The notes: a model not told the origin generated them from the letters alone. DNA of 23,913 nt from a virus (IMGVR_UViG_3300050343_000129:1-23913), one strand, 5' to 3'; positions 5,686 to 15,140 are shown, numbered from the stretch's first letter. Made by a program: numbers and translations.

Positions 5686-8275
5686 ATGGCATTAAAATTT
5701 TTAAATAACGGATATTTCGCCGGCAAGGTAGGTATTGGAACAGAAAGTTTTAAAAATAGAAGCAGATTCAAATCCTTTTATTAGATGGGTTGAAAATGGA
5801 ACTGATGTTGGATTTTTACAGTTTTTAGGAGATAATGCTTACTTATCGAATATGTCAAATGGTAGTTTATTTATTAGAACTAACAATACTGATAAAATGA
5901 CTATCCTATCCGGAGGCAACGTCGGGATCGGGACTACTAGTCCTGATTTAAAACTCGACGTTACACACGCTACAGCTGGTGAATATGTAGCTACTTTTCA
6001 AAACACTGGATCTAATTTAGAATTAAAGCTTGGAGTAACTTCTACAGGTTATTTAAATATACAAGGGCAACAAATAAATAATTCTGCTACCTTTAACATG
6101 TCTTTACAAGCAGATGGCGGTAATGTAGGTATTAACACAACTATTCCTACTCAAAAACTTCACGTAGTTGGCAATGCAAGAGTTACAGGAGCATACTACG
6201 ATTCTAATAATTCACCAGGTACTGCAAACCAAGTTTTAGTATCTACAGTTACAGGTACTGATTGGATCGATGGCTCAGCTATACCAGGTGTACCAGCAGG
6301 GTCAGGTACTTTAAATACAGTTGCTATGTGGACGCCAGATGGTGATACGCTAGGTAATAGTAATATAACGCAAAGTACTTCGTTTGCAAATGATATAATT
6401 ATACCTCAATACGTAAGACATACTAGTGATACAAATACTTATTTTGGATTTGGTCTTAACGATACAGTTAATTTTGGCACTGCTGGTTCAGAACGTATGC
6501 GTATAACTTCTACCGGCAACGTCGGGATCAAGACAACATCGCCAGCTAACCCTTTAAGTATAAATTTTGCTCCTTACGGTATAAGTAGTATAACAACAAG
6601 TAATAATAGCACTGCGTGGAACACAAGTTCAGCTATAATGTTAGAAGGAGCTTCTAATAGTAATGGATTAGGTTTTGGAGTATCTGGAACAGCTAATGAC
6701 AGAAAATCTTGGATTCAATCCGGGCATCCCGATCAACAGTATGCAAATAGTCTTGGCACTTTAGCTATTAATCCATTAGGCGGCAACGTCGGGATCGGGA
6801 CTACTAGTCCTGACGCAAAGCTTACTGTAAATGGTAATGGAACTGATTTTGGTATTAGAGTTAATAACACCAGCAGTGGTGACGGTATAAGAACTGTTTT
6901 AGCGGCTGATTTAGCAAATAACCATTTACTTTGTAACCAAGGCGGAATTAATATATTTAATTTATATGCGTTAAACGATAATTCTGGTAAGTTTATTATG
7001 AAATCTGGCGACGGTACAGATAAAATAAAACTTAACACAACAGGTGATAGTTATTTTAACGGCGGCAACGTCGGTATAGGGACGACTAGTCCTAGTGCAA
7101 AATTACATGTAAGTAACAGTAGCGCTTCTCAATTATATTTATCAAGAACAGGTAGTATTACAGGCACATACAGAGTTGGTATAGCTGGTGCTACAAATAA
7201 CTTTTATATTTCAGATATTGTTCAAAGCGCAAATAGATTAGTTATTGATGCTTTTGGAAACGTAGGAATCGGAACAAATTCGCCTACTCAAAAACTTCAC
7301 ATAGTTGGCAATGCAAGAGTTACAGGAGCATATTACGATTCAAATAATTCACCAGGTACTGCAAACCAAGTTTTAGTATCTACAGCCACAGGTACAGATT
7401 GGGTTGATGGCTCAGGGTCAAGTATTATAGGCGGTCCTTACTTACCACTTGCTGGTGGCACAATGACTGGTGATTTAAAATTAAACGATGCGGTACAATT
7501 AAAACTGGGTACAGGTAACGATTTAAGAATATATCATTCAGGTACAAATTCTAATATAGAAAATAACAGTGGCACCTTACAGATTATACAAAACTTAGAT
7601 GATGGTGATATAGTATTTAAATCTGATAATGGTGGTGGTGGTGTAGCTGAATATTTTAGATTAGATGGTGGTATAGCAAAAACTGTTTTTTCTAGAGATG
7701 CTCAATTTTTAGATAATGCAAAAGCTCTTTTTGGTAATAGCTACGATCTTCAAATATACCACGACGGAAGTAATAGCTATATAAAAGATACAGGAACAGG
7801 TATTTTAGCTATTCAAGGAAATATTATAGCTCTTGAAAATACAAGTGGAGTAAATTACTTTGTAGGCGTAGATGGTGCTCAAGCAGAGTTATATTACAAT
7901 GGTTCTAGTCAACTTCAAACTACAAGCACAGGTGTTGCTGTAACAGGCGATATAAATATTGATTCTGCTTTACTTTCAAACCAAGAAAACACAGATGTAG
8001 ATACAGGAACTGAAACAGTGGCTAGTGTAGCAATTGCTACGTATACAGCAGCTTTTTTTGACTTTGTTATTAAGAAAACAACTAACGTAAGATCAGGTAC
8101 AGTTTATGCTTGCCACGACGGAACAAACGTAGAATTTACAGAAACATCAACACAAGACTTAGGTGATACATCAGATGTTACACTAAGCGTAGATATATCA
8201 GGAGGCAATATGAGACTTAGGGCTACAACAACTTCAGATGACTGGAGTATTAAATCATTAATAAGAGCAATATAA
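5686..8275 (+). CDS. large tail fibre with GNVGIGTTSP repeats (one frame change near 5750)
   Basis: The natural start is ATG at 5686 (MALKFLNNGYFAGKVGIGTE). Around 5745-5755 the frame changes, and an 846-codon frame then runs from 5735 to 8275, so the intact product would be about 860 aa. Repeats of the GNVGI(G/K)T(T/N)SP type occur about every 45-100 residues (nt 5915, 6515, 6782, 7064, 7256), each usually followed by xxKLxV. These are trimerising beta repeats of phage fibres and bacterial adhesins. A domain with PLAGGTMTGDLKLNDAVQL-KLG and another YDLQIYHDGSNSYI unit follow, then a C-terminal beta domain (FFDFVIKKTTNVRSG, WSIKSLIRAI). It probably binds the host surface. The stop overlaps the next start (TAATG). 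Confidence 0.75.
5722..7285 (+). repeat. GC-rich GNVGIGTTSP-coding repeat, first array
   Basis: A 30-bp unit beginning GGCAACGTCGGGATCGG and ending ACTAGTCCT occurs at 5915-5944 and 6782-6811 (identical), 7064-7093 (four base differences) and 6515-6544 (3' half diverged). Looser copies lie at 5722 and 7256. It is much richer in G+C than its surroundings and uses codons (GGC, AAC, GTC, GGG, ATC) rare in the rest of the gene. Confidence 0.8.
6149..6278 (+). repeat. 130-bp direct repeat, copy 1
   Basis: Encodes TQKLHVVGNARVTGAYYDSN and the following NSPGTANQVLVSTVTGTDW segment. Copy 2 is at 7286-7415, same length, roughly 90 percent or more identical by eye, and in frame. It is an internal duplication within the fibre gene. 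Confidence 0.85.
7286..7415 (+). repeat. 130-bp direct repeat, copy 2
   Basis: The duplicate of 6149-6278 (TQKLHIVGNARVTGAYYDSN and following). Together the copies flank about 1 kb of fibre sequence that recombination between them would remove in frame. Confidence 0.85.
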
Positions 8276-8955
8276 TGGGATTTTATAGAGGACCAAATAT
8301 AGTAACGGATGAGCTAAAATTAGCTTTAGACGCAGGAAGCGAAAGATCTTACGCAGGATCAGGAACTACAGCTTATAATATAATAGATAATTCCTCTGTT
8401 AGTTTACTTAATGGAGTAGGATTTAATTCATCTAATGGTGGATTTTGGGAATTTGATGGTACTGATGATTACATTCAGATACCTAATACAGCTTCTCTTG
8501 AACCACAAAATGAATTATCAATTGAAATGGTTATAAAAGCTCAATCGATTAAAACTGGCTGGAGCAGGCTTTACGGAAAAAATCCATACCAAAATAATGG
8601 CGCATTAGTATTTTTAGAAACAGGTGGTCAATCGATAAGAGCTTTACACTATGTAGGTAGTACTGAGTATAGATGCAACACTCCAGTTACTATATCAACA
8701 TCCGCTTGGATACATGTGGTATTTACTTTTAAAACTGGAGACGCTATTAGAAGCTATTTTAACGGAGTTGCTTCAACTACTACTGCTCTTCCCGCTGGTA
8801 CGTTTTCATATGGTAATTATCCTTACCTTGTGGGGTATGTTGGAGCGTCTTGGCCAAATATCGACTGTGCTATAGTCAGGTCTTATGCAAAGGCACTTTC
8901 AGCTGCAGAAGTACTACAAAATTTTAACGCACAAAAATCAAGATTCGGATTATGA
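8275..8955 (+). CDS. LamG/concanavalin A-like lectin tail protein
   Basis: This 226-aa protein starts MGFYRGPNIVTDELKLALDA, a standard head for these phage adhesins. A jelly-roll laminin-G-like domain follows: FWEFDGTDDYIQIP near residue 60, LSIEMVIKAQ, an RLYGKNPY loop, SAWIHVVFTFKTGDAIRSYF near 145, VGYVGASWPNIDCAIVRSY. The tail is AKALSAAEVLQNFNAQKSRF-GL. The order FDG..DYI / W..V..TF / YFNG / I...R.Y..ALS..E matches LamG_3-type carbohydrate-binding folds. It probably recognises a surface glycan. The frame is intact. Its TGA overlaps the ATG of the small partner gene; a broken paralogue with a partner follows at 9202. Confidence 0.85.
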   Translation: MGFYRGPNIVTDELKLALDAGSERSYAGSGTTAYNIIDNSSVSLLNGVGFNSSNGGFWEFDGTDDYIQIPNTASLEPQNELSIEMVIKAQSIKTGWSRLYGKNPYQNNGALVFLETGGQSIRALHYVGSTEYRCNTPVTISTSAWIHVVFTFKTGDAIRSYFNGVASTTTALPAGTFSYGNYPYLVGYVGASWPNIDCAIVRSYAKALSAAEVLQNFNAQKSRFGL

Positions 8956-9200
8956 TAACATACATTACAATAAATATGTCTGAAATAGCATTGGTTGATT
9001 TCAATCAAGTGTTAGAGACATCAGAACAAACAGTTAGACTATCAGTTGATGGTTTACAAACAGTATTAAAGTGGGAAGGTGCAGAACCTTCATTTGTATC
9101 AACATTAAGTTCATACGAAGGACCTTATACCCACGAAGAAATTTTAGTAATAATGGCTACTCCAGAATGGACTGACCCAAACCCAAATCCACCAGAATAA
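8952..9200 (+). CDS. 82-aa partner of the lectin gene
   Basis: This 82-aa protein starts MITYITINMSEIALVDFNQV, runs through SVDGLQTVLKWEGAEPSFVS and LSSYEGPYTHEEILVIMATP, and ends acidic and proline-rich (EWTDPNPNPPE). Small genes of this kind often follow LamG-type fibre genes in marine phages with the same ATGA overlap, suggesting a subunit or assembly helper of the lectin. A paralogous arrangement (lectin then small gene) recurs at 9202-10031. The biochemical role is unknown. Confidence 0.7.
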   Translation: MITYITINMSEIALVDFNQVLETSEQTVRLSVDGLQTVLKWEGAEPSFVSTLSSYEGPYTHEEILVIMATPEWTDPNPNPPE

Positions 9201-9201
9201 T

Positions 9202-9825
9202 ATGGGAGCATTTGGAGGACCAGATATAGTAACAGACGGATTGCAGCAAAAATAATGCAACATTAAAACGGTTCTATTACTTATACTTCCGGTGCTAATG
9301 GAGGGTTCAACTTTAAACGGTCCTACTACTTTTGACTATATATCAGTTTCTGAAACAGTAACACACAAAACAGGGCAAAGTTTTAGTTATGATGTTTGGG
9401 TATATTTTGATGCGTTATCAGGTTATGACAAAACAATTGTTGGAAAAGTTGGCTGTAATATAGGTTTAGTACAAGCAGGTTCAAGTATGAGAATGCAAGT
9501 ATATGGCCCTAACAGTGCTTGTGCTTCGGGAAATGTAGCTTATACAGCTGTGTCATCAATAACAACAGGAGAATGGATGTATGCTGTCGGTACTTATGAA
9601 GTAGGTGTGGGTGTTAAGCTTTATATGAACAGTGTTTTAGCATCTACAGTAGCTTGCACAGGAAATATAGGTAATTATCCTGATGTTTTATTTTTTGGAG
9701 GATCTATTAACGCTAACTATGTAATGGATGGACGTATAGGTGAAGCTAAAGCATATAGCAAAGCATTAACTCAGGCAGAAGTAACACAAAATTTTAACGC
9801 AGCAAGAACAAGATTTGGAATATGA
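9202..9825 (+). pseudogene. second LamG-like lectin gene, disrupted near its start
   Basis: Starts MGAFGGPDIVTDGL as lectin genes do, then meets a stop at 9253-9255. Compared with the intact neighbour, the segment joining the head to the lectin domain is missing, so a deletion around 9243-9256 is likely. Lectin-like sequence resumes in another frame (NNATL, then NGSITYTSGANGG after an extra A in AAAA near 9266) and shifts again at TTTAAACGG near 9315. From there an open frame runs to 9825: TFDYISVSETVTHKTGQSFS, YDVWVYFDALSGYDK, GEWMYAVGTYEVGVGVKLYM, ending AKALTQAEVTQNFNAARTRF-type sequence. Two of the breaks lie in A runs. It is either a decaying receptor-binding gene or erroneous sequence. 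Confidence 0.75.
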
Positions 9826-10031
9826 AAAATTATATTAATAATACTGAATTATCAATAACTTACATATCTCAAGGGGAGGTTGAAACCAGTGTGTTTGATA
9901 CAGATCAAGAATTTAAAGACTTTATGTATGATGTGTTTTTAATTGTTTCTACCTCTAGGGAATTCACTGAAATACCAGACACGGAAATAGTAGAAAATTA
10001 CAATGCTTTACGAGCAAGATTTGGATTATAG
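9822..10031 (+). CDS. 69-aa lectin partner with a lectin-like C-terminus (chimera)
   Basis: This 69-aa protein starts MKNYINNTELSITYISQG through an ATGA overlap with the lectin gene, as at 8952. Its last part, DTEIVENYNALRARFGL, instead matches the terminal signature of the two lectins (EVLQNFNAQKSRFGL and EVTQNFNAARTRFGI). The likely explanation is fusion of the first half of a partner gene to the last codons of a LamG gene by deletion, leaving a short intact hybrid. Whether the product is stable or functional is unknown. Confidence 0.65.
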   Translation: MKNYINNTELSITYISQGEVETSVFDTDQEFKDFMYDVFLIVSTSREFTEIPDTEIVENYNALRARFGL

Positions 10032-10153
10032 AATAATAACTTTTTGGATATTGAAAAAAAGATAATAATAATATGGCAAACGAATTTAAAATAAAAAAAG
10101 GCTTAATTGTCGAAGGAGCTTCAGGTGGAACCGTGGTAAATGTACTCGGTTCT

Positions 10154-10252
10154 CAAGGGCAACTTCTTTCAGTAACCGACGACTTAAGCGGATCTATATT
10201 CGCTGTGTCAGATATATCTGGTGTACCGATATTCGATGTCAACTCGAGTGGT
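10154..10252 (+). repeat. 33-codon module, copy 1 (synonymously diverged)
   Basis: Encodes QGQLLSVTDDLSGSIFAVSD and the following ISGVPIFDVNSSG. Copy 2 at 11568-11666 encodes nearly the same protein with many silent base changes, so selection acts here on the protein. This contrasts with the nucleotide-conserved GNVGIGTTSP units in the same gene. Confidence 0.8.
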
Positions 10253-10970
10253 CTTTCTACTTTTGATGGTAATGTTAATTTAGGCGCTAATCATATTGGT
10301 AGAGATGATGATAACTATATAGGATTTCAAACTGATAATTTAATTAAGTTTAGGGTTGCTGGCGCCACCCAAGTAAAAATTGGCGATGGAGTATTTTCAG
10401 CACAAACAAATAATGATGTTGACTTAGGTTCTAGTGGTGCTAGATTTAAAGACATATACTTATCAGGAAAAGTTGTAGCGGGTACAGGATCAACCGCGGC
10501 GGCAACTATTAATGCTTATTCTACAGGTCTTGTAACAGGTGTACCAGTATACAAAGGAACGTGGGACTTTTGCAGGTGATATTACTAGTACTGGTTTGAC
10601 AGTTGACTATACAGGTAATCGTACCTGGTGATGCTGGTATTTTAGTAACTAACGACAATGATGATTGGGGTATAAAAGTAGATAAAGACGGTACAGCTGA
10701 CTACGGTATCTTATCGCAAACAGATGGTGAAAATGCAATAGTTGTAAGAAACGCAGCTGGTGTTGATAAGATACAGCTACAAGGTGATGGTGACGCAACT
10801 TTTGCAGGAAATTACATAATTCAACAGATGGTTTAGATGCATTAATTTCATTTACAAATCCTGGAGGAACTTTAGGTAGAATACAAGGAATAGATAATGG
10901 TGGTTTAGGATTTGATGTAGGTAATAATGCTGGTGGTATTAATACTAACGCTATGTTTATCAATAGCTCC

Positions 10971-11923
10971 GGCAACGTCGGGATCGGAACGACTAGTCCT
11001 TATGCTAAATTAGAGGCGCAAGGACCTAATATAGTTTCAGCTTCTCCTGTGGTTATAAAAAAAGCTAAATTACTTAATTTAAGCTTAGCTACATCTGCTT
11101 ACTACGGAGGTTTTGCTGAATTTTGGATGGGTAGATATGCTAATGTATCTAACCACGCTAAATCTGTATTAACTATATCTTTAAATGATGGTCTTTATGG
11201 ATCAAATACTAATGCGGATACCGATGTAATGACACTACGAGGTGACGGCAACGTCGGGATCGGTACGACTAGTCCTATTGATAAATTAAATGTAAATGGT
11301 GGAACAGGAGATGCTATTACTCAACAACCTAAAATAACTGTTACAAGAACTTCAAGTACAGGTAACGTGCTAGCGGGTAAAATGATTCTTACAACTAAAC
11401 CTTCTGATCCCACTAATCACGGTAATTTAGTTTTTCAAGTTAAAACCACCGCAAGTTCTGGTGAAAGTTCTGCTTATTACACAGATGCTATAACTATAGA
11501 TGGTAAAAACGCCAACGTCGGTATTGGAACATCAACTCCTTTAGCTAAATTAGACATACAAGGAACACAAGGTCAGTTATTCTCAGTTACAGATGATCTT
11601 AGCGGAAGTATATTTGCAGTAGCGGATATATCAGGTGTACCAATTTTTGATGTTAATTCTAGTGGTGTATCTTACTTTGATGGCGACGTCGGGATTGGAA
11701 CACAGCTTCAGACGTTGGTGGCCAAATGGTTTTTGGAGGACCAATAAGTGCTACGGATAGCAACAGAACATTTGCATTAGTAGGTGGATACAAAGAAGAC
11801 GGGACTTCTGGTAGTAGGGCAGGATACTTATCGTTTGGAACTAGAGAGAATACAGGTGCACGTGATATAGTTCAAAGAATGCGTATCACCTCAGCCGGCA
11901 AGGTTGGTATCGGTGTGACTGGG
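10971..11923 (+). repeat. GC-rich GNVGIGTTSP-coding repeat, second array
   Basis: Near-identical 30-bp units at 10971-11000 and 11247-11276 (GGCAACGTCGGGATCGG start, ACTAGTCCT end) match those in the separate fibre gene at 5915 and 6782. Partial copies at 11511, 11682 and 11897 keep the AACGTCGG or GACGTCGGGAT core to differing degrees. Confidence 0.8.
11568..11666 (+). repeat. 33-codon module, copy 2
   Basis: Protein-level duplicate of 10154-10252 (QGQLFSVTDDLSGSIFAVAD and following). Third-position differences are frequent, showing an older duplication or import from another phage. Confidence 0.8.
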
Positions 11924-12473
11924 ACTGACTCTAGATTAACAGTTTCATCTGGTACTGCAAACAATGTAGCAAACTTTAAATCAACTGACGGAATGGCTTA
12001 TATTGCTATTTCTGATAATAGTTCTTCAAGTGCTTTAGGTAATCAAGTAGGTGTTGTTGGCGATCAAATGTATTTTGCAGTCGGTGATGTAGAAAGAATG
12101 CGTCTAGTGCCTGACGGTAATAGTACGTTTGTTATAATAAAAGCTAAGCCAGCTACTTATAATTCAAAATCATTTATTACATTGTATGGTACAAATTCTA
12201 GTACTGCTACAAACTTTATATTATCTTCTGATAAAACATTAAAAGAAAATATAAAAGATATAGATAATAAACATATTGATGTTACTGGAAAAACTTTGAA
12301 TTAAAATCTGAACCAGGTGTAAAAAGAGCAGGTGTTATAGCTCAAGAACTTGAAGCAAAACATCCAGAGTTTGTAAGAACAAATGAAGATGGTTTAAAGT
12401 CTGTAGCTTATATAGATTTACTAATAGCTAAAATTGCTGAGTTAGAAGCAAGGTTAGAAAAAGCAGGATTATA

Positions 12474-12893: not shown

Positions 12894-12922
12894 TAAATAA
12901 ATAAATAAATAAATAAATAAAT
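12894..12922. repeat. TAAA microsatellite
   Basis: About seven tandem TAAA units follow the stop of the 139-aa gene and precede the next gene by 19 bases. It may serve as an A-rich translation leader of variable length for the 129-aa gene, or be simple slippage. Confidence 0.85.
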
Positions 12923-12941
12923 CAATCTTTAAAATTAAAAA

Positions 12942-13331
12942 ATGGCAATTACTTACAAATGGGATATCCCACAAATGAACGCTCACATTCAATCAGAAGG
13001 TGAAGACAATGTAATATACACAGTACATTACAGATACACTGGCTCTGAAGAATCAGGAGGCAAAACTTATTCATCAACAAACATTGGAACACAAAGTTAC
13101 ACGTATGTAGCAGGAGATCCTTTTGTACCTTACGAAGATACAGAAGCTTTTGAAAACGTAGTTATTGGATGGTTAGAAGGATCACTAGATGTGCCTGCAA
13201 TGCAAGCTAGCATAGCTGCAACTATTCAATCTGAGATTACACCAGTAAACGAAGACTTATACTTTACATGGCAAAACCCAGTACCACCGGTACCACCAGT
13301 AGAAGAGGAAGAAGAAGTGTTAAAGATCTGA
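12942..13331 (+). CDS. 129-aa virion-associated protein with proline/glutamate tail
   Basis: Starts MAITYKWDIPQMNAHIQSEG. A beta-rich body (VIYTVHYRYTGSEESGGKTY, SSTNIGTQSYTY) is followed by a helix (AFENVVIGWLEGSLDVPAMQ) and a NEDLYFTWQNPVPPVPPV linker ending in five glutamates and VLKI. MAITYKW..... TVHWRY starts are common in small phage proteins found near tail genes; the role is unassigned. The last 64 nt overlap the groEL frame, where the proline/glutamate codons read as a threonine/arginine-rich extension in the other frame. Confidence 0.7.
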   Translation: MAITYKWDIPQMNAHIQSEGEDNVIYTVHYRYTGSEESGGKTYSSTNIGTQSYTYVAGDPFVPYEDTEAFENVVIGWLEGSLDVPAMQASIAATIQSEITPVNEDLYFTWQNPVPPVPPVEEEEEVLKI

Positions 13332-14896
13332 ATTTCGGCGATGATGCACGAAATAAAATCATGTCCGGTGTTTCTAAATTATCCGACGCAGTGAAGTCCA
13401 CGTTAGGTGCTTCTGGAAAATGCGTTATATACGAAGACGCTATGGGCAGACCGGTAATCACAAAAGATGGTGTAACCGTTGCGGAAAGCGTAGTCTTAAT
13501 GGACCCGGTCGAAAATATAGGAGCTACTTTAATAAAAGAAGCTGCTAGTAATACAGTGAAAGAAGCAGGTGACGGTACCACTACGGCTATCGTCCTTGCT
13601 CAATCACTATTAAATAAACTAAACGAATACGATGGCGAAGAATCAATTAGATATATTAAAGAAGGAGTTGCAGGATGTGCTAAAGAGATTATGGACTATC
13701 TTGATACTACCTCCACTGAGGTTAAGGGTGAAATGCTTAGTCAAGTTGCATATATTAGCTGTAACAATGACCAAGAACTTGGAGACAAAATTGGAGAAGC
13801 ATATGAAAAAGTTGGACGAAACGGAGTCGTATTAATGGAAGATTCCCCCACAAATGAAACTTATGTTGAGTTTGTTGAGGGTACACAATTTAATTCAGGT
13901 ATTAAATCACCACACTTAATAACAGATAAAGAAAAAGGTACAGCAGTATTAGAAAATCCTTATGTGTTAATAGTAAGTTCAGCAATACCTAATGTAAGAA
14001 GAATACAAGGCATATTAGAACACGTTATAAAAAGCAAACGTTCTTTATTGATTGTTGCTCCAGTAGACCAACAACCATATGCCACATTGCTTGCTAATAA
14101 AGTTAAGGGCAATATAAAAGTAAATATTGTAGATTTACCGGGGTTTGGCCCAACTAAAGAAGATGCTATAGAAGATTTGGCTATCCTGACTGGCGCTACA
14201 GCTGTTAACGAGGAGTTAGGCGATGATTTAGACTTAATAGATGTAAATGTATTAGGTGAAGTCGTTAAGTCCGTTACAGACGATAAAAACACTACGCTGC
14301 AAATTAATGAAGTTACAGAACCTGTAGCTGAAAGAATTAAAGACGTAGAAAGAAAAATAGAAAAAGAAAAAAACGGCTGGATTAAAAAGAAGCTACAAGA
14401 AAGATTATCTATGCTTACTGGAAAAGTTGGTGTAATTTATATTGGTGCGGATTCAGAGGTTGAACTAAAAGAAAAGAAAGATAGAGTTGATGATGCGTTG
14501 CATGCAACTAAAGCTGCATTAGCAGAAGGTATTGTGCCAGGCGGTGGTGTTGCTTTACTTAACGCTTCACAGACTATAGTAAAACAAGATGAAGGTTACG
14601 ATATATTATTAAGTGCTATAACAGCACCTTACCATACTATATTAAAAAACGCTGGATTTGATGATGCTTTAAACCCTAAAGAATATGTCGAAAGTAATAA
14701 AGACATAAATGATAGAGACTGGGCAGGTGTTGGTATTGATGCCACTTGCGGATGTTATAAGAATATGATTGATAGTGGAATTATAGATCCAGTATTAGTA
14801 ACTAAAGCAGCTTTAAAAAATGCAATAAGTGTAGCGACTACAATTGTATCGGCTGATTGTATAATCTCAAACGTAAGAACTCTTGAAAGCAATTAA
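13268..14896 (+). CDS. groL: phage-encoded GroEL chaperonin
   Basis: This 542-aa protein matches group I chaperonin almost end to end (E. coli GroEL is 548). Equatorial ATP-site motifs are present: ITKDGVTVA near residue 64 with the catalytic-loop aspartate, AGDGTTTAIVLAQ near 100, and KKDRVDDALHATKAAL near 403 with the hydrolytic aspartate, then PGGGVALL. The apical domain spans about 205-395 with PGFG near 290. The usual Gly-Gly-Met tail is absent; it ends RTLESN. GroEL homology begins at SVKDLNFGDDARNKI, so the only in-frame ATG (13268) adds 16 Thr/Arg-rich residues read through the previous gene's end. The folding client is probably the phage's own capsid or fibre proteins. Partner groES overlaps by 14 nt. 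Confidence 0.95.
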   Translation: MAKPSTTGTTSRRGRRSVKDLNFGDDARNKIMSGVSKLSDAVKSTLGASGKCVIYEDAMGRPVITKDGVTVAESVVLMDPVENIGATLIKEAASNTVKEAGDGTTTAIVLAQSLLNKLNEYDGEESIRYIKEGVAGCAKEIMDYLDTTSTEVKGEMLSQVAYISCNNDQELGDKIGEAYEKVGRNGVVLMEDSPTNETYVEFVEGTQFNSGIKSPHLITDKEKGTAVLENPYVLIVSSAIPNVRRIQGILEHVIKSKRSLLIVAPVDQQPYATLLANKVKGNIKVNIVDLPGFGPTKEDAIEDLAILTGATAVNEELGDDLDLIDVNVLGEVVKSVTDDKNTTLQINEVTEPVAERIKDVERKIEKEKNGWIKKKLQERLSMLTGKVGVIYIGADSEVELKEKKDRVDDALHATKAALAEGIVPGGGVALLNASQTIVKQDEGYDILLSAITAPYHTILKNAGFDDALNPKEYVESNKDINDRDWAGVGIDATCGCYKNMIDSGIIDPVLVTKAALKNAISVATTIVSADCIISNVRTLESN

Positions 14897-15140
14897 TTAT
14901 TACATCGTTATCGATAAAATAAAAGAAGCGCCGAAGACAGTAGGTGGTCTTGAATTAACTGAAAGTCAAAATAAAGACATTAGGTACTTAAAAGCGAAAG
15001 TTATAAGTTCTGGTGATAAAGTAGATTACATAAAAAAAGATAGTGTTATAAGATACGACAAGCATGCAGGTCATGGTATTGAATGGGACGATAAAATGTA
15101 CCATGTTATTACCATCAATGATGTTGTTTTAGTAGAATGA
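14883..15140 (+). CDS. groS: phage-encoded GroES co-chaperonin
   Basis: This 85-aa protein begins at a TTG codon (14883), as no ATG fits and homology starts there: KAINYYIVIDKIKEAPKTVG. The mobile-loop region GGLELTES corresponds to the GGIVLT loop that docks onto GroEL, then AKVISSGDKVDYIKKDSVIR and a C-terminal strand ITINDVVLVE. It is shorter than typical GroES (about 97 aa), with a reduced roof region. It overlaps groEL by 14 nt and the next gene by 4 nt (ATGA), so the two chaperonin subunits are probably translationally coupled. Confidence 0.85.
   Translation: MKAINYYIVIDKIKEAPKTVGGLELTESQNKDIRYLKAKVISSGDKVDYIKKDSVIRYDKHAGHGIEWDDKMYHVITINDVVLVE

Follow-up and report, generated by a model that had tools for sequence, protein, structure and literature searches.

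Tail-fibre capping loops as probable recombination junctions homogenised within uncultured aquatic phages

A 30-bp unit recurs in two tail-fibre genes of the DNA analysed here, a virus record of 23,913 bp (IMGVR_UViG_3300050343_000129:1-23913, henceforth called the window), and its codons are more alike within a phage than the encoded protein requires. The explanation that we consider best overall, and hold with fairly high confidence, is that capping loops of the fibre serve as recombination junctions and are homogenised by exchange, with Erf as the likely enzyme. The unit would then be the capping loop closing each beta-helical module of a trimeric tail fibre and, as a loop would head every module, its 27–30 bp would be the sole DNA common to unrelated neighbouring modules. 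Where two copies met, either as two sites of one genome or from phages sharing a cell, modules would be joined in frame by homologous exchange across the loop. Repeated exchange would transfer modules between fibre genes and between phages, and would at the same time overwrite the loop copies, so that the same codons would be found within a phage while the flanks differ. The exchange would likely be carried out by an Erf-type single-strand-annealing recombinase of these phages. More tentatively, the silent sites of the loop may be under second-order selection, the loop acting both as protein cap and as recombination anchor across many unrelated aquatic phages; if this is true, a phage gains a working set of points for in-frame exchange by keeping its loop DNA the same inside its genome and across genomes. 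The evidence base consists of metagenomic contigs throughout, and exchange was read from sequence.

Fibre genes and loop copies of the window

The terminase large subunit of the window shared 63% identity with its counterpart in an uncultured Caudoviricetes genome and about 45% with those of Flavobacterium phages, Cellulophaga phages likewise being among the matches; the nearest named group was phages of Flavobacteriia. No phage record matched the window, or its second fibre gene, at the DNA level. Genes for GroEL and GroES were also present in the window. Fibre gene 1 (5735..8275, plus strand) matched the annotated tail-fibre families PHROG 18345 (E = 1e-22) and 9942 (E = 3e-20); it contains an apparent frameshift near 5742, and its real start probably lies upstream of 5735. 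Fibre gene 2 (10073..12470, plus strand) is fragmented, apparently split up by single-base frameshifts, into the pieces 10073-10579, 10603-10836, 10953-11747, and 11726-12304 plus a remainder. Read by eye, the end of this gene looks like an S74 intramolecular chaperone (SDKTLKENI...), without a library match: the region reads SDKTLKENIKDIDNK and, after an apparent frameshift, KSEPGVKRAGVIAQELEAKHPEFV, the broken pieces having no Pfam match. The claim of an earlier note on this DNA that two genes carry the unit stands, with the second "gene" (~10073-12470) lying in pieces via apparent frameshifts.

Five copies of the 30-mer encoding GNVGIGTTSP were found exactly where the earlier note had placed a near-identical repeat (5915, 6782, 7064, 10971, and 11247), with 0, 0, 3, 2, and 2 mismatches to GGCAACGTCGGGATCGGGACTACTAGTCCT, respectively, and all in one orientation. 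Pairwise, the five units shared 27–30 of 30 bases and 7–10 of 10 codons, and 100 dinucleotide shuffles yielded zero copies of a unit resembling GGCAACGTCGGGATCGGGACTACTAGTCCT. Unit 1 (5915..5944, consensus DNA), unit 2 (6782..6811, equal to unit 1), and unit 3 (7064..7093, 27/30 bases shared with units 1 and 2) lie in the ORF 5735-8275, units 4 (10971..11000) and 5 (11247..11276) in fibre gene 2, all on the plus strand. The unit codons are unlike their surroundings, as had been proposed: outside the units, the ORF 5735-8275 used GTC for 0/48 valines, ATC for 2/55 isoleucines, GGG for 4/91 glycines, and ACG for 4/86 threonines.

The region holds about 11 loops, six of which (6119, 6515, 7256, 11511, 11682, and 11897, likewise on the plus strand) are partly or wholly diverged. 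Two diverged loops, GNVGINTTIP (6119..6148) and GNVGIGTNSP (7256..7285), head the two copies of a true module duplicate of 160 nt (6119-6278 versus 7256-7415, 88% identical); the earlier claim that the flanks of the unit are unrelated needs refinement for this pair, which stands behind diverged loops. The variant loop GNVGIKTTSP (6515..6544) is consensus in bases 1-15, and ANVGIGTSTP (CCAACGTCGG, 11511..11540) is partly consensus. GDVGIGT (GGCGACGTCGGGATTGGAACA, 11682..11702) is followed by an apparent frameshift and forms the end of a module shared with contig L016 (11514-11701), and the last loop reads GKVGIGVTGT (11897..11926).

Most loops, in either fibre gene, read GNVGIGTTSPxxKL, which fits the published capping-loop motif of trimeric beta-helical fibres, V-G-[G/N]-x-x-x-P-x-x-x-L, known from Bdellovibrio fibres and S74 phage proteins (PMC10769870). 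The best solved relative was bd2133 (PDB 8ond, E = 1.3e-4, phmmer). Based on this fit and this match, the amino-acid repeat itself is an already known structural element; the peptide GNVGIGTTSP was not named in the literature searched.

Distribution of the unit and codon identity of the loop

With the third positions of two codons left free, the 30-mer was found in 34 viral contigs besides the window; at least 120 contain its 18-base core. All of the 85 checked copies of the core were in frame on the coding strand of long ORFs; the unit is therefore a coding element, and an independent DNA site was ruled out. A site-specific shufflon or invertase, which would need inverted recombination sites and a dedicated recombinase beside the fibre gene, was rejected on the same count, together with the uniform orientation of the units and the result that no recombinase was recognised among the window proteins scanned. 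A search of 84,980 genomes of bacteria and archaea found the unit pattern once, in a pond MAG and there in a gene resembling a bacterial S74 fibre gene, and an origin from the host or a prophage was rejected on this count. No cultured phage contained the full unit, the best match (24/30 bases) being an uncultured Manatee Spring genome; descent from cultured phages was discarded on this basis and for the lack of DNA-level phage matches to the window.

The earlier note had stated that DNA identity in the unit goes beyond protein need and had read it as short recombination anchors for in-frame shuffling of fibre modules or, alternatively, as recent spread by gene conversion. For an unbiased sample, 120 contigs were picked by the amino-acid motif alone, to avoid selecting codons, and 77 viral ORFs were tested. 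Loop pairs were compared within one ORF, pairs with homologous flanks were left out, and the expectation was derived from the codon usage of the ORF itself. Codon sharing at loop codons 1-9 was 0.54–0.78 (expected 0.26–0.61), compared to 0.47 at codon 10 (expected 0.40) and 0.32 at the conserved leucine 14 (expected 0.32, i.e., no excess). The per-ORF excess of codon identity was 0.217 in the loop and positive in 66 of the 77 ORFs (p = 1.5e-10). At the conserved positions K13, L14, V16, and G18 next to the loop, it was 0.014 (p = 0.87). Homogenisation hence ends sharply after codon 9, at about 27 bp, and protein requirement alone cannot account for the DNA identity of the loop. At silent sites the unit thus differs from its flanks, and the within-ORF excess supports homogenisation by recombination, the gene-conversion half of the earlier reading. 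The internal control named in the earlier note, a module conserved only as protein, was borne out too: 10148-10267 and 11562-11681 share 35/40 amino acids but only 15/35 of the corresponding codons.

The excess was 0.229 outside the relatives of the window and 0.254 in contigs with a GC content above 0.42. A bacterial comparison set, genes that carry this loop and come from the same phylum as the single bacterial genome bearing the unit, gave 0.060. Loops located in separate ORFs of one contig had a codon identity of 0.60 (expected 0.37; 9 contigs), whereas pairs taken across contigs of the unbiased sample had 0.33 (expected 0.33). Since the excess exists within contigs and not between them, the loops are homogenised inside each phage.

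Kinship of the phages or recent duplication of modules could in principle make loops alike by descent only. Of the 34 contigs with exact matches, 23 join the window in one group linked by non-fibre DNA, and the common consensus is confined to part of the phages, mostly this group. However, pairs with homologous flanks had been excluded, the conserved neighbouring codons were not alike, and the effect was equally strong outside the group of the window; moreover, the shared modules described below are far more similar than the core genes of the contigs carrying them. Given the flank control, common descent or module duplication is largely refuted as the sole cause, and we consider it very improbable.

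It is also unlikely, if slightly less so, that the codon string has a function of its own, either in slow translation and folding or as an RNA or DNA hairpin. In favour, the gene around the loops seldom uses the consensus codons (GTC 0.60 versus 0.03 expected, ACG 0.60 versus 0.07), and an imperfect inverted repeat, GGACTACTAGTCC, lies within the string. Yet the G opposite AGTCC occurred at 0.28 with AGT serine codons and at 0.23 with TCN, i.e., without covariation, and a hairpin or RNA element, considered among the alternatives (ALTERNATIVES), was dropped as unsupported, its possible stem showing no such covariation. Separate phages were homogenised to separate codon versions, and the loop codons were only slightly rarer than random in the unbiased sample, both of which fit poorly with rare-codon pausing; a rare-codon patch was likewise rejected as weak in that sample. 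Finally, the consensus codons were linked as haplotypes (variance 3.8 versus 1.9, 0/2000 shuffles, with contig GC differences uncorrected).

Junctions between fibre modules

The window is a mosaic of modules (all on the plus strand) shared with other contigs and repeatedly bordered by loops. The module 6497..6812 was 94% identical to contig L033 and is bounded by the loop at 6515 on its left and by unit 2 (6782) on its right, with 100-base flanks at 50% and 56%, i.e., the level of unrelated sequence. A second module (10809..10999), with 90% identity to L213, has its right border in unit 4 (59% downstream); in the stretch of L213 compared, no similarity to the window was found in non-fibre DNA. 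From unit 5 on the left to the loop at 11511 on the right, the module 11246..11527 was 85% identical to L063 (flanks 52% and 53%), and no non-fibre similarity was found across the 1.6 kb of L063 compared. The loop at 11511 also forms the left border of the next module (11515..11678), which starts in it and was 94% identical to L179 and 87% to L016. Core genes of the window reached at most about 80% identity (best ~78–79%) with any contig compared and mostly 65–72%. In the module-sharing contigs, modules were 85–94% identical, and core genes 66–78% or without detectable similarity. As the modules are far closer than the cores, they have moved between lineages whose cores diverged long ago.

Module borders were then counted in an all-against-all alignment of 285 fibre ORFs from 259 loci, in which a block was defined by at least 120 bp and at least 80% identity and its end was counted where identity fell to the level of unrelated sequence. 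Loops were excised before alignment, since a conserved loop alone might lengthen an alignment. With the loops excised, 47/154 right and 43/161 left block ends lay within 3 bp of a loop site (1.4% expected). When each distinct junction was counted once, this was the case for 66 of 249 junctions (3.6 expected; maximum of 12 in 500 simulations). Ninety junctions lay within 3 bp of a loop in one contig, and in 78 of these cases the partner contig showed the same, in register; 24 of the 91 blocks with two sharp ends were loop-bounded on both sides, and the junction set involved 108 contigs. About 60% of the junctions lay away from loops even at a 12-bp margin, so that loops are preferred and not exclusive. 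The module shuffling at the unit that had been proposed is supported by these counts, breakpoints indeed falling there; with the silent-site and the breakpoint tests both favourable, the shuffling and the homogenisation halves of the earlier reading are each supported.

We infer that crossovers occur inside the loop. In junction loops, codon identity was higher towards the module and lower on the far side (p = 0.01 at the 12-bp margin, p = 0.04 at 3 bp), which is the expected trace of such crossovers, although the effect is small, and most junction loops resembled each other no more than randomly drawn pairs of the same contigs did.

Selection on the protein could also place junctions at loops if illegitimate recombination joined modules at any position but folding succeeded solely in chimaeras with the join at the capping loop. 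The loop is a known structural border, i.e., the capping loop of beta-helical fibres (PMC10769870), and at such a domain border protein selection alone would favour junctions; the scarcely elevated likeness of junction loops points the same way. This accounts for the positions of the junctions but not for codon homogenisation: its confinement to codons 1-9 and its near absence from bacterial genes with the same loop are left unexplained, and the agreement in register of 78/90 near-loop junctions in both contigs would be rare by chance joins. We regard this explanation as possible but improbable, if clearly less so than the others weighed here.

There is very little chance that assemblers produced the pattern by joining unrelated modules at short repeats. 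The contigs are metagenomic, the repeats are about 30 bp long, and the window contains apparent frameshifts. Against this, homogenisation was measured inside single ORFs, where no junction is required, and identical borders recurred in independent contigs among the 108 involved. Ordinary reads and the k-mers of late assembly stages are, moreover, longer than repeats of 30 bp.

Candidate recombinase and known systems

Thirty bases are close to the lower limit for homologous exchange. Among 21 contigs tested for recombinases (unit carriers or relatives of the window), Erf (PF04404) was detected in eight (E-values down to 2e-34), including the larger contigs L010, L020, L033, L038, L045, and L213, and was not found in the other 13, mostly fragments, nor in the window fragment. 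With DNA of 22% divergence (78% identity), the Erf of phage D3 matches Red-beta in recombination efficiency, and short homologous stretches suffice for Rad52-like recombinases (PMC3945230). That relaxed recombination, Erf included, resembles the situation here in the phage-encoded annealing recombinase, the short or diverged homologies, and the mosaic genomes; it was assayed in phages of E. coli, whereas for the aquatic phages it is deduced from sequence (PMC3945230). Erf may accordingly be the enzyme that carries out the loop exchange. RecT was absent from all 21 contigs and was ruled out as the exchange enzyme on this ground. RecA scored above the cut-off in one of the 21, and no recombinase was recognised among the scanned proteins of the window.

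The practical question addressed is how tail fibres can be rebuilt quickly without damage to the protein, and swapped modules may change receptor binding and host range. An element of 27–30 bp in many phage groups, recognisable via codon homogenisation alone, predicts sites of module exchange, and module boundaries of uncultured phages become readable from sequence. In T-even phages, short conserved coding motifs in the fibre or adhesin gene reportedly act as in-frame exchange points. The T-even type system thus likewise relies on in-frame exchange at conserved motifs, and breakpoints at the motif as well as DNA-level conservation were found here. In contrast to it, the motif here is a repeated beta-helix capping loop of another phage group with many copies per gene, and its 27-bp homogenisation was measured against neighbouring codons and bacterial genes.

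In phages of E. coli, conserved DNA motifs of 44, 95, and 20 bp around receptor-binding domains have been proposed as recombination hotspots (PMC10408124). As here, DNA is more conserved than its surroundings at the borders of exchanged receptor-binding parts, but those motifs flank one receptor-binding domain, whereas the present unit recurs within the fibre gene, with a copy at the border of every module. The mosaic adhesive trimer (MAT) fibres of Bdellovibrio (PMC10769870; PDB 8ond, 8oml, 8ol4) are of the same fibre type with the same loop motif; they combine capping loops with an S74 chaperone, and tip swapping has been proposed for them. In bacterial loci of the Bdellovibrio type, however, loop codons are near expectation (0.06), unlike the phage excess of 0.22. 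That phages swap fibre parts at conserved motifs is already known (T-even phages; PMC10408124). This analysis adds the identification of the element and its presence in many phages, shows a homogenisation limited sharply to 27 bp against controls from the protein and from bacteria, and counts the breakpoints directly.

Arginine codon preceding the unit

Codon -4 relative to the 30-bp unit encodes the arginine of the preceding MRI motif, for which CGT was preferred both in the fibre ORFs of the unbiased set, i.e., contigs found by amino-acid motif only (0.41 observed vs. 0.22 expected), and in those of the consensus set (0.47 observed vs. 0.12 expected). Despite this preference, within-ORF homogenisation was absent at this arginine in the fibre ORFs of both sets.

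Laminin-G-like ORFs and the region 3' of the fibres

Laminin-G-like ORFs had starts (MGxxxGPxIVTD) and ends (AEVxQNFNAxxxRFG) that were near-identical between ORFs at the DNA level, with repeats located at 8905, 9775, and 9981 and at 8269 and 9196. Positions 8893-9242 were 86-93% identical to the compared loci L179, L028, and L049. These ORFs with common ends possibly constitute a second in-frame cassette system.

Immediately 3' of the fibre locus, a small ORF region (12903-13317; ORF 12942-13331, PHROG 7802, function unknown) reached up to 93% identity to several contigs (median 81%), whereas the adjoining GroEL gene was mostly 65-77% identical. The region looks like a further exchange border or a fibre-linked gene moving together with the fibres. 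The phage carried both chaperonin genes (13268-15140), GroEL (PHROG 5725, E = 1e-137) and GroES (PHROG 3188).

Frame breaks and assembly

Several structural genes were interrupted by apparent single-base indels (5742 and approximately 9240, 10570, 10630, 10830, 11702, and 12300); at 12300, for instance, the S74-like reading switched to a different frame downstream of an A homopolymer. Such interruptions point to sequencing errors in the contig rather than to gene decay. Contig L213 (IMGVR_UViG_3300047157_000162, 129,537 bp), which shares a fibre module with the window, contained a pair of Erf genes separated by about 62 kb, possibly due to a genome assembled doubled.

Unit in a bacterial gene

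One unit copy matching the phage consensus was located inside a bacterial gene of a pond MAG (L264, JAIYDC010000130.1), which may reflect phage-to-bacterium transfer or coincidence. This gene had an S74-like end and resembled Bdellovibrio MAT fibre genes.
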